From IMG/VR virus record IMGVR_UViG_3300020169_000083, positions 1 through 28,076 of that record: 28,076 nucleotides of DNA. One strand, written 5' to 3'. The position numbers were made by a program, and so were the translations under genes. The notes under the pieces are model-generated. The model made no database searches and was not told where the DNA came from. It worked only from the letters and a program-made list of their open reading frames with translations. Positions 8,629-24,635 of the stretch are shown in pieces (the first letter of the stretch is position 1; the number at the start of each line of letters is the position of its first letter). The stretch is from a virus.

Positions 8629-10710
8629 TTAATCTTTTTTAAATGGTGGGTTCAATTTTCCGTAGTTAGGCATGTCGTATGGTGCAATGGCCTCTGTTCC
8701 TTTCTGTTTTATGAATGGATTATTTCCTACTCTTACTTCATTTTTCAATCCGTCTGAAGGCATGAATGTTCCATCCGGACTTCGCTTCCTGAAATATATT
8801 CTTCTTAACCATCCATGTCTGCAATAACACCCACCTTTATATTCAAATAAATCATATTTTGATGATCCTTTTTTTGCAAATTGTCCATTGATGCTTTCAT
8901 CAGACATTTTATTTATGTCTTCAAGCCTCCATTCAAGGCCCTGTCTTGACCATGCCATCATCATTTCACAGAATTCCCTTGACTTATTGCCATTTTCATT
9001 TGGTGTGTTATTCACCTTTGAATAATAATACCTTACTTTATAAAGACCGGTGTCACCTTCGCTTGATTTTTGATCAGGATCTGCCATTGATTTTGTAGGC
9101 ATTTTATTGACAGCAAAATTCTGAAGATTATCTTCAATTTGATTTATTGTTTTTAAATCAGAATTTTCATCACCTTCATCAGCTAATAAACCCCATGCAG
9201 ATTCATCATTTTTTTCTGCATAACCTTCTAATTTTGAAAGAAAATAAGACCCTAATTCATCAGACAGATATGGTCTATCATCCTTTTTTTTTTTGGATAT
9301 TTTAGAAAGCAATTGTTCTGTGTCTTTACTAAAGAACCCTTTTGCAACTTCTTCCGGCAACTGAAGGAACTGAACCAAGAACACAATTGCCTGTGCTTCA
9401 TTCAAGACACCTTCCTGAACCTTTGCAACAATATCAATTGCTGAACTAATCTGTGCGCCATTATATGATGCGTCAACCTTTTCAACATCTTCAACCATGC
9501 CATCAGCTTCTTCACTTATTGTTGCATCTGCATTTGGAATCACTTCTGTTGCAACTTCTTCATTGATTGTTTCAGCTTCTGTGTCTGCAAATTCTGTTTT
9601 GAAAAGATCAAATGGTTTGAAATATAAATTTAAAGAAATACCACTTTCAGCCATTAATACTTTTAATGCGTCAATAATAACATCCCTGAATGGTTCAATG
9701 ATTGTCTGTTCAAACAATGCTGATGCTGTCTGAAGTTCTTCAGCATTATTTCCCAATCCACCGGAATCAATTACACCAAATAATCTTGGCGAAACAACTC
9801 TGTGACTGATCATCACTTTCTTTGTGATTTCTTCTGAAAGGAATTGATATTGTTTATCTGCATCAGACAATGGAACAGGTGTGATTTCAGGTGTTGTATC
9901 TCTACCATCTGAAAATGTACAAAGAAATTTACCTGCATTTGTAGATCCTGCAAGTTCTTCTTCAATGGTTCTTTTTATTTCTTCACGTTTCTGTCTTGGT
10001 GGAATACCATTTGCAAAGTTGATTACAAATGAAGGTGCTAATCCTTTTTCAATTTGTGACAAATGGAATTGTGAAACATTCTTATCAAGTTCAATGTAAT
10101 TCCATGCACCAATGTAATCAGGTTTTGGGTAATAATAAGATCCAACAGAATTCATCTTGACACATAATACTTGTGTCGGATAAACTGATTTTGCTTTTGG
10201 ATCAAATGATTTTAATTCTGTGTATTTTGCCCTACTTCCGGCTGACCAATCTTGTGAATAATAATACCAATCAACATCACCTTCTTCATCAACATGGCCT
10301 GACCTTATTGTTTCATAAGGTAAAACCTCCATGTCAACAACTTCAGATCTGTCAAGACTATATGTAAAAGATATATAAAACCCTCCATGAAGCTTCAAAT
10401 CCATACACATCAATTGAATGTCATTCTTACCGATCTTTTTGTTTATCAGCTTATTGAATTTCACCCAATCTTCGGCATGTCTTTCTTTGTTGTCTGCATC
10501 AATTCCCCCTCCATATATCCATGATGATATTGAATTTACAAGTGCATTGTGTGTGGCTGAATTTTGATACAAGTCAATGGTGTGTTGTGGAAATAGATTG
10601 TCAATTCCATACCATATGAAATCTGATCCCCTCTTTGCAAATTCTGATGAATCAGTCAATGCATAGGAAGAACCCATTGCACCAAAATTAAATGTGTCTT
10701 TTTTAGCCAT
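8629..10710 (-). CDS. Portal protein with C-terminal extension
   Basis: The 693-aa product has a portal core over roughly residues 1-470. It includes a clip/stem-like region (ALAPSFVINF-type segment, then a long REEIKRTIEEELAGS helix), SPRLFGVIDSGGLGNNAEEL (the conserved region after the stem) and TIIEPFRDVIIDALKVLM. A Lys run (SKKKKDD, near 474-478) follows, then an extra domain with SREFCEMMMAWSRQG and YKGGCYCRHGWLRRI, a Cys/His/Trp cluster also seen fused or next to portals in Bacteroidota phages and recalling MuF-like minor head proteins. The ATG at 10710 is preferred to an upstream TTG at 10737. An A11 run lies exactly between core and extension. Confidence 0.88.
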   Translation of the reverse strand: MAKKDTFNFGAMGSSYALTDSSEFAKRGSDFIWYGIDNLFPQHTIDLYQNSATHNALVNSISSWIYGGGIDADNKERHAEDWVKFNKLINKKIGKNDIQLMCMDLKLHGGFYISFTYSLDRSEVVDMEVLPYETIRSGHVDEEGDVDWYYYSQDWSAGSRAKYTELKSFDPKAKSVYPTQVLCVKMNSVGSYYYPKPDYIGAWNYIELDKNVSQFHLSQIEKGLAPSFVINFANGIPPRQKREEIKRTIEEELAGSTNAGKFLCTFSDGRDTTPEITPVPLSDADKQYQFLSEEITKKVMISHRVVSPRLFGVIDSGGLGNNAEELQTASALFEQTIIEPFRDVIIDALKVLMAESGISLNLYFKPFDLFKTEFADTEAETINEEVATEVIPNADATISEEADGMVEDVEKVDASYNGAQISSAIDIVAKVQEGVLNEAQAIVFLVQFLQLPEEVAKGFFSKDTEQLLSKISKKKKDDRPYLSDELGSYFLSKLEGYAEKNDESAWGLLADEGDENSDLKTINQIEDNLQNFAVNKMPTKSMADPDQKSSEGDTGLYKVRYYYSKVNNTPNENGNKSREFCEMMMAWSRQGLEWRLEDINKMSDESINGQFAKKGSSKYDLFEYKGGCYCRHGWLRRIYFRKRSPDGTFMPSDGLKNEVRVGNNPFIKQKGTEAIAPYDMPNYGKLNPPFKKD
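9283..9294 (-). other. A11 slippery run between portal core and extension
   Basis: The coding strand has eleven A's followed by G, read as AAA AAA AAA AAG. This contains A_AAA_AAG in the reading frame, the strongest bacterial -1 frameshift heptamer. After a -1 shift the next codons are GGA then TGA, ending the protein at residue 477, where a normal portal would end. Transcriptional slippage in such a run would give the same kind of truncation. Confidence 0.5.
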
Positions 10711-11200
10711 TGTATGATATTGTTGCAGGAATGTCAACTTGTGTCACCCCTGATTGTGAATTTTGATAATGATCATTTACAAAGTTGTCATTGTGAACCA
10801 ATGCCATTCCCCTGTTTACTTCCAATGTGATCAGCTGTGAATCAGAAGATGTTGCACCATATGATCCATAAAATACTTTGTAATCATATAAACCTTCAGA
10901 TGTCAAATTCAAGTGAAATGTTTGTGTTATATCATCTAAATAAAGAAAGAATTGTTTTGATCTTGGGAAATTATCTTCTGCATATATTTCACCAAGTTGA
11001 CTAAAGTATTTTTTCTGTGTTGCCTGTTCAATCAATTCAACATAGTATGTTGCAAATGCTGTGTTCATGTTTGAATTTGGTGTGTATTGTGCATTTGGTG
11101 ACAATACATCCGTGCAATTTATAGATGATGAAACCCTTGTTGAATACACATCAATTGAAAACAAATTCTGAACCCCATTAGAAGATCTTAAATGCAACAT
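10703..11200 (-). CDS. Putative virion protein, 165 aa
   Basis: The protein is strand-rich with many Ser/Thr/Asn and a motif FSQLGEIYAEDNFPRSKQFF followed by LYLDDITQTFHLNLTSEGLY, which resembles small beta-sandwich structural proteins of Bacteroidota phages. It lies between tail-tube and portal genes and overlaps the portal start by 8 bases (ATGGCTAA). An in-frame AAGGAGG sits just upstream of its ATG, rare in this genome. I cannot assign a precise virion position. Confidence 0.7.
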   Translation of the reverse strand: MLHLRSSNGVQNLFSIDVYSTRVSSSINCTDVLSPNAQYTPNSNMNTAFATYYVELIEQATQKKYFSQLGEIYAEDNFPRSKQFFLYLDDITQTFHLNLTSEGLYDYKVFYGSYGATSSDSQLITLEVNRGMALVHNDNFVNDHYQNSQSGVTQVDIPATISYNG

Positions 11201-23893: not shown

Positions 23894-24132
23894 CTTTTAT
23901 TTTGTTTCTTTCTCATTTCTTTTTCTCTTTCTCTTTGCCTATCTGCATCAAGTGATAATTTTGTCAATGCAAACATCAAAGGTAATTCTGTGATGGATTC
24001 AAATTTTAGGATGTCACCATTTGCCAATCCATCTATTACACTAAACCATCCATAACTTGATGATGCTGATGGTTTGCCTCCTTTTCTGAAGACTGATGGA
24101 AATTGTGAAGTTGTTCGTTTCCTAAATTCCAA
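23890..24132 (-). CDS. Tail-chaperone-like second frame (reached by -1 frameshift)
   Basis: An 80-codon open frame that starts exactly at the T9 run and has no plausible start codon of its own except TTG inside that run; the first internal Met is about 50 residues in. It encodes a Ser-rich linker (KPSASSSYGWFSVIDGLANG) and then LMFALTKLSLDADRQRERE, the build of gpT-like parts of tail assembly chaperones. Joined to the first 168 residues of the upstream frame it makes a 248-aa fusion, like lambda gpGT. Its stop overlaps the next gene as ATGA. A single-base assembly error would look the same. Confidence 0.65.
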   Translation of the reverse strand: MEFRKRTTSQFPSVFRKGGKPSASSSYGWFSVIDGLANGDILKFESITELPLMFALTKLSLDADRQREREKEMRKKQNKR

Positions 24133-24635
24133 AAAAAAACAGCAACAGCATTTCCAATGTTGATTGATAAGTTTTCAAATTTATCAGCATTTTTACCATG
24201 CATGTCTATGTCGTATGGCTCAATATCGTATCTGTTGCCTTGTGTCTTTGTTATTGGCCTATAAAAGACAGACATCAATTTTGCCATGTCATTATCTTTT
24301 GCAAATGTTTCAATGTCAACAAATTCACCCATTGTAATTTCATCAATTTTTGGATGAAATCCATACATTGTTCCTTCAATGTCTATCTTGTTGATGATCT
24401 CTTTATTTATTGGTTTGCCTATCAGCTTTTGAAGACTACCTTGAATCTTTTGCAAATCAGACAACTTCATCACCTCCACCACAGATTCATCAATGTCACA
24501 CAATGTGCTTATTGTCTTGACAATTATCTGATGCTGATCTTCCAATTCATTGACAGCATTATTGTATCTGATGAATTTTTTGATACTTATTTCTGACCAA
24601 TCTGTTGGAATGGTGATTTCAAATGTTTTCTTCAT
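24036..24635 (-). CDS. Tail-chaperone-like protein (gpG-like), 199 aa
   Basis: The protein begins MKKTFEITIPTDWSEISIKK, includes KLIGKPINKEIINKIDIEGT, and HPKIDEITMGEFVDIETFAK with FYRPITKTQGNRYDIEPYD, a pattern I know from Bacteroidota phage chaperone-like proteins. After residue 168 the normal frame continues 31 residues ending in a His/Gln-rich tail, while a -1 shift at T_TTT_TTT leads into the 80-residue second frame. Two products from one start fit lambda G/GT-type tail chaperones. Unusually, it lies next to the terminase, 8 kb from the tape measure gene. Confidence 0.75.
   Translation of the reverse strand: MKKTFEITIPTDWSEISIKKFIRYNNAVNELEDQHQIIVKTISTLCDIDESVVEVMKLSDLQKIQGSLQKLIGKPINKEIINKIDIEGTMYGFHPKIDEITMGEFVDIETFAKDNDMAKLMSVFYRPITKTQGNRYDIEPYDIDMHGKNADKFENLSINIGNAVAVFFWNLGNEQLHNFHQSSEKEANHQHHQVMDGLV
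24131..24139 (-). other. T9 slippery site, candidate programmed -1 frameshift
   Basis: The coding strand reads GTT TTT TTT TGG, so T_TTT_TTT is in the heptamer phase needed for -1 slippage. After the shift, TTG GAA TTT AGG continues into an open 80-codon frame. Both tRNAs re-pair perfectly on T's. Confidence 0.6.

Follow-up and report, generated by a model that had tools for sequence, protein, structure and literature searches.

The question raised by this locus is whether a run of eleven A's within a phage portal gene is a site at which the reading frame changes, so that two forms of the portal arise from one gene. The longest homopolymer in the whole stretch of 28,076 nucleotides that was analysed (hereafter the window) is this very run: T11 at 9284-9294, read from the coding minus strand as A11 and then G (9283). 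It lies in an open reading frame on the minus strand (8629..10737) that has 702 codons from a TTG or 693 codons from the ATG at 10710 and encodes a portal core, a helical domain and a C-terminal Cys/His domain. Around the run the zero frame reads TCC AAA AAA AAA AAG GAT GAT, with the slippery heptamer A_AAA_AAG in phase. The -1 frame reads AAA GGA TGA and stops at 9278..9280 (minus strand), which predicts a product of 477 residues, counted from the ATG, that ends in ...KKKKG; the unshifted frame would run to 693 residues, and the +1 frame stops with a TAG at 9252..9254 (minus strand), 11 codons past the slip site. Re-reading of the sequence at 9283-9294 confirmed the position, the frame and the two product lengths of 477 and 693 residues that a preliminary description of this DNA had reported. 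The proximity of the -1 and +1 stops was not clearly beyond chance, compared with the gene or with synonymous shuffles; since AT-rich genes have such stops everywhere, near stops in the shifted frames were dropped as evidence for slippage. An internal start for the C-terminal domain was dropped as well, because the window has no zero-frame ATG just 3' of the run.

The encoded protein matched the portal family PHROG_33693 (5e-65) and PF04860 (1.3e-9, 38.1 bits), the latter one bit short of the cut-off of 39.1. In the AlphaFold model the core (residues about 30-385; 9583..10650, minus strand) is mostly confident and Foldseek aligned the model with the portals of the gene transfer agent (GTA), phage 812, G20C, lambda and T4 (E 1e-9 to 1e-7). 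By fold and family profile, the protein is a tailed-phage portal, and by analogy with its family it presumably forms a dodecameric ring at one vertex. Residues 382-424 are disordered in the model. They are followed by a helical add-on domain, 'YNGAQISSAIDI...AIVFLVQFLQLP' (residues about 421-480; 9298..9477, minus strand), with helices at 427-480, which would be the last structured part of the short form, then by a low-confidence coil (481-491) and by the C-terminal domain, which starts at residue 493 (8632..9264, minus strand), is present in the unshifted product only and has the conserved residues C590, C639 and H641 (702-residue numbering). The A run encodes residues 482-485 and thus falls within the coil, a predicted disordered linker, as expected from the earlier proposal that it separates the portal core from an extra domain. 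Most Foldseek partners are complete portals, 360-450 residues long; the short form therefore amounts to a whole portal plus the helical domain, with the run at a domain boundary. The C-terminal domain had no convincing match in Pfam or the PDB. Its matches among the predicted viral structures of BFVD include portal and XkdF-domain proteins, and a domain resembling that at 8632-9264 was found by Foldseek in uncultured-phage proteins of the XkdF type (prohead protease). Given this resemblance, it may be a module that moves among head proteins.

Relatives were collected by a protein scan (80), by a profile scan, which added more, and from genome contigs, which contributed seven distant relatives. 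A DNA pattern placed on the conserved upstream peptide, with no selection on the run, served for a third scan, whose loci were pooled with the earlier ones. A run of A8-A11 was found at the junction in 73 of 77 near-complete relatives, and the remaining four (L007, L008, L009 and L018) have lost the surrounding linker, too. Because these four and L084 are close relatives that have lost the run, the phages of the group do not all depend on it, and distant portals without a run also exist. Among diverged portals (80% representatives), 24 of 88 have A9-A11 at the junction of the core and the C-terminal part, in all three codon phases, and the run is also present next to an unrelated flanking peptide in L095, L102, L110, L111, L160, L168 and L122. 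Comparison of length and phase in relatives, as suggested in the preliminary description, thus had a divided outcome: the length is kept at 9-11 (A8 in L014), but the phase is not, since the first A may fall on any of the three codon positions. A homopolymer of at least nine A's, as looked for in programmed transcriptional slippage, is therefore present both here (A11) and in most run-bearing relatives (9-11). The pooled run lengths were bimodal, with A11 in 59, A10 in 28, A9 in one, A8 in two and seven A's or fewer in 64 loci, and the presence of the run changed at least 11 times on the core tree, with seven of the changes forced by well-supported branches.

The core and the C-terminal domain are encoded in a single reading frame in the relatives checked, except for the frame-disrupted contigs L011 and L212; relatives with the portal and the C-terminal domain as separate genes were not found, and in the Bacteroides phage BS-TP3 the gene that follows the 395-residue portal is not the C-terminal domain. 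L011 is 99% identical to the window and its portal frame is broken near residue 314; its A11 run is intact, with synonymous differences around it. Eight portals (L005, L015, L017, L081, L122, L138, L141 and L160) carry a domain of about 100 residues, 'TKGM...ARARDI...RHEVDK...PSAGRIAWALWGGDAG', inserted in the linker at a point that varies and lies before or after the run. No run-bearing portal was found in cultured phages among 50,697 records; the only cultured phages with the C-terminal domain are Nonlabens P12024S/L, which have no run. A related portal was found in only 2 of 397 genomes of one family in the host-genome search. The assignment of the host to the Bacteroidota is indirect for this contig: it draws on the Nonlabens phages and on Flavobacteriia genomes that contain distant relatives.

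Could the run be neutral, that is, a lysine-rich flexible linker of AT-rich phages that is written in AAA codons, with only the full-length portal being of importance? AAA makes up 66% of the lysine codons, the linker is predicted to be disordered, and early stops in the other frames are expected by chance, all of which would fit. However, A10 or longer is present in the portal gene of 36 of 103 representatives (90% identity) and absent from the other reading frames (at least 150 codons) of the same loci, which amount to 376 kb. After shuffling of synonymous codons, 15.3 ± 2.8 portal genes (maximum 24 in 200 shuffles) kept A10 or longer, compared with the 36 observed; the conserved peptide KKK thus accounts for part of the excess, but not for all of it. 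In the 56 A11 portals, which are 65-100% (mean 82%) identical, CAA AAA AAA AAA is invariant (56/56), whereas AAG makes up 31% of their lysine codons elsewhere. The synonymous diversity at the run was 0.008 (mean 0.356), the lowest of all five-codon windows in the gene, and in a control clade of 30 portals that lack the run, the linker was not among the windows of lowest synonymous diversity. Relatives that keep the lysine tract but have an internal AAG that breaks the run were not found. Moreover, selection normally acts against long A runs in coding sequence (PMC1088944), and runs of nine A's or T's are described as depleted in the coding sequence of AT-rich genomes (PMC1088944, PMC5009743). 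Judged by this codon usage, the run is conserved in the A11 clade beyond what the protein requires, as is looked for in transcriptional slippage. Its presence in this contig is not due to chance.

The evidence that weighs most against neutrality came from the -1 frame. In 48 of the 56 A11 portals, it ends with Cys-Gly/Ser-Cys-stop (C[GS]C-stop) after 10-12 codons, and the zero frame at this tail varies (VAVAE, VAAAE, NVVAN, DADAE, DADVK, DAGVK, DAVVK, SADVK or PAAVK). Position 2 of the zero frame, which is position 3 of the -1 frame, is free in the tail, while position 3 of the zero frame (position 1 of the -1 frame) is fixed: pairwise diversities were 0.447 and 0.000, where the gene as a whole averages 0.070 and 0.354. 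On the core tree, parsimony counted 4, 33 and 0 changes at zero-frame positions 1, 2 and 3 of the four tail codons, against about 6, 3 and 29 expected from the gene averages of 1.42, 0.74 and 7.32 changes per codon; the tail pattern had no comparable counterpart among 410 windows. In shuffles that kept the zero-frame protein, an average of 0.9 of 40 tails had C[GS]C-stop (at most 5 in any of 2000 shuffles), as against 32 observed. The excess of changes at position 2, together with the lack of changes at position 3, indicates that the -1 frame is under selection in the clade with the Cys-Gly-Cys (CGC) tail, and the truncated product is, therefore, very likely produced and put to use there. The CGC tail belongs to this clade only. 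In the clade of the window the shifted frames show stops only, and the -1 tail of one or two residues is too short for the coding-constraint test; here, the -1 product would be carried over by homology of the site. The idea put forward in the preliminary description, that a core and an extended form come from one gene, thus gained support from the purifying selection on the -1 tail in one clade and from the lack of relatives with an AAG-broken run. In the A11 clade a neutral run is hard to reconcile with this constraint; for the group, we consider it unlikely. Many portals that lack the run (e.g. L185, L204, L242 and L256) have a Cys pair in the zero frame, 'LSxHVCCSKDD', at the site of the KKK of run-bearing portals; the Cys motif of the one run-bearing clade is in the -1 frame.

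A selected site still leaves the choice of the machinery. Programmed -1 ribosomal frameshifting on A_AAA_AAG or A_AAA_AAA_G, as in dnaX of E. coli, would lead to the same short form, and indeed the heptamer is in the zero frame in nearly every run and the selected frame in the big clade is -1. But the heptamer requires only A7 in one phase, whereas the runs have 9-11 A's and are variable in phase. Stimulators are usual, though not universal, in -1 ribosomal frameshifting; neither an upstream SD-like motif nor a downstream fold beyond that of shuffles was found in 24 representatives (fold z-scores of -2.0 to +1.1). Furthermore, the +1 frame of the 56 A11-GT portals also stops at once, within two codons, by way of GTA-GTT, GTT-GTA or GTA-AAR, and the tree requires seven or more interchanges between GTA-GTT and GTT-GTA, with intermediates not seen. 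Since a length of at least nine is kept in three phases and stimulators were not found, slippage by RNA polymerase is favoured over ribosomal -1 shifting and is, in our estimate, considerably more likely. This reverses the order of the preliminary description, in which transcription slippage was the second route, now the better backed one, and the emphasis was on a ribosomal shift at A_AAA_AAG, which does not agree well with the variable phase and the lack of stimulators. Ribosomal frameshifting as the explanation of the short form is rather improbable but deserves to be kept in mind, and both machineries may act together at the run. Bacterial RNA polymerase is described to slip efficiently on nine A's or T's (PMC1088944, PMC5009743), and portal runs of 9-11 A's reach or exceed this threshold of 9 nt.

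Slippage could also take place at the level of DNA. Long homopolymers are generally hypermutable, and replication slippage (phase variation) at a contingency locus would make the C-terminal domain present in some virions and absent from others. Such a locus should leave out-of-frame run lengths, but these were present in 0 of 88 run-bearing linkers, the run length was uniform within clades, and the sole broken frame in this set, that of L212, is due to an indel upstream of the run. Phase variation was thus rejected as a candidate, and we regard it as very improbable.

The reading we prefer, and hold to be probable, is that selection has kept the A run as a slippage site at which, most likely, RNA polymerase adds or drops A's while copying, so that a mixed population of portal mRNAs would result. 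Messages whose number of A's is the encoded one, or differs from it by a multiple of three, would give the 693-residue portal with the C-terminal Cys/His domain, and all others would reach a stop soon past the run and give a portal of about 477 residues without this domain. Both forms would share the ring-forming core and could co-assemble, and the run would then control how much of the C-terminal domain the ring carries; its purpose might be to limit crowding of the inner mouth of the portal by C-terminal domains. As proposed in the preliminary description, a fixed ratio might put a few copies of the extra domain on each ring of 12. We infer the polymerase, rather than the ribosome, to be the slipping machine. 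The usual view of a portal is that of a ring of twelve identical chains. A further-reaching model, advanced tentatively and with somewhat more doubt than trust, is that polymerase slippage produces mixed rings of short and long chains in which the assumed twelvefold chemical symmetry is broken by design, and that the short form of one clade ends in a conserved Cys-Gly-Cys with a specific role, metal binding or cross-linking. If the run is a conserved recoding site, subunit heterogeneity would be part of the portal design in a widespread group of uncultured phages, the presence of a bulky C-terminal domain would be explained without twelve copies per ring, and a simple route would be given to probe the effect of portal asymmetry on packaging or neck assembly. 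The annotation of these genomes would also miss a short portal product.

A second homopolymer is found in the same phages. A tail-chaperone-like gene for 199 residues (24036-24635), with a weak tail match to PHROG_166, has a T9 near its 3' end (24131-24139, minus strand) that is exact in six relatives down to 70% identity, and the -1 frame past T9 opens a conserved frame of 80-84 codons in 7/7. The arrangement is like that of the lambda G/GT tail-assembly chaperone. Since T9 is kept and the -1 frame conserved, a further virion-assembly gene of these phages seems to have its other frame opened by a homopolymer of at least nine, which supports the slippage reading of the portal run and suggests that homopolymer slippage serves at least two such genes in one phage.

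A two-form portal made from a kept A run in a large group of uncultured Bacteroidota phages should be new, as far as comparison of these genes can tell: no precedent for recoding of a portal was found in the open-licence literature, and the accessible part of the main review mentions no portal. Virion or assembly proteins in two C-terminal forms made by recoding are described for T7/T3 gene 10, phage A2, PSA and lambda G/GT (PMC5009743); in these systems the shift usually adds a domain, whereas the shift in the portal gene removes one. The PHROG_33693 portals, including those of the Nonlabens phages P12024S/L, combine this core and this C-terminal Cys/His domain in a single reading frame, but the Nonlabens portals have neither the helical domain nor the A run. 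With dnaX of E. coli, the portal site shares the heptamer A_AAA_AAG and a short product that ends just past the shift; it differs in its long run, its variable phase and the lack of a detected SD-like or hairpin stimulator. In dnaX of Thermus thermophilus (tau/gamma), slippage on nine bases, with stops in the two alternative frames, is described to yield the full-length and the short product in a ratio of about 1:1 (PMC5009743, PMC1088944). There, as would be the case here, a homopolymer lies in one long reading frame and an altered number of A's leads to a nearby stop and to a short product that shares the N-terminal part; the portal site, with its length of 9-11, its occurrence in all three phases and its stops in both other frames, looks alike. 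Unlike the Thermus site, that described here lies in a phage portal gene, has a run of 9-11 A's and, in one clade, a -1 tail that is itself conserved.
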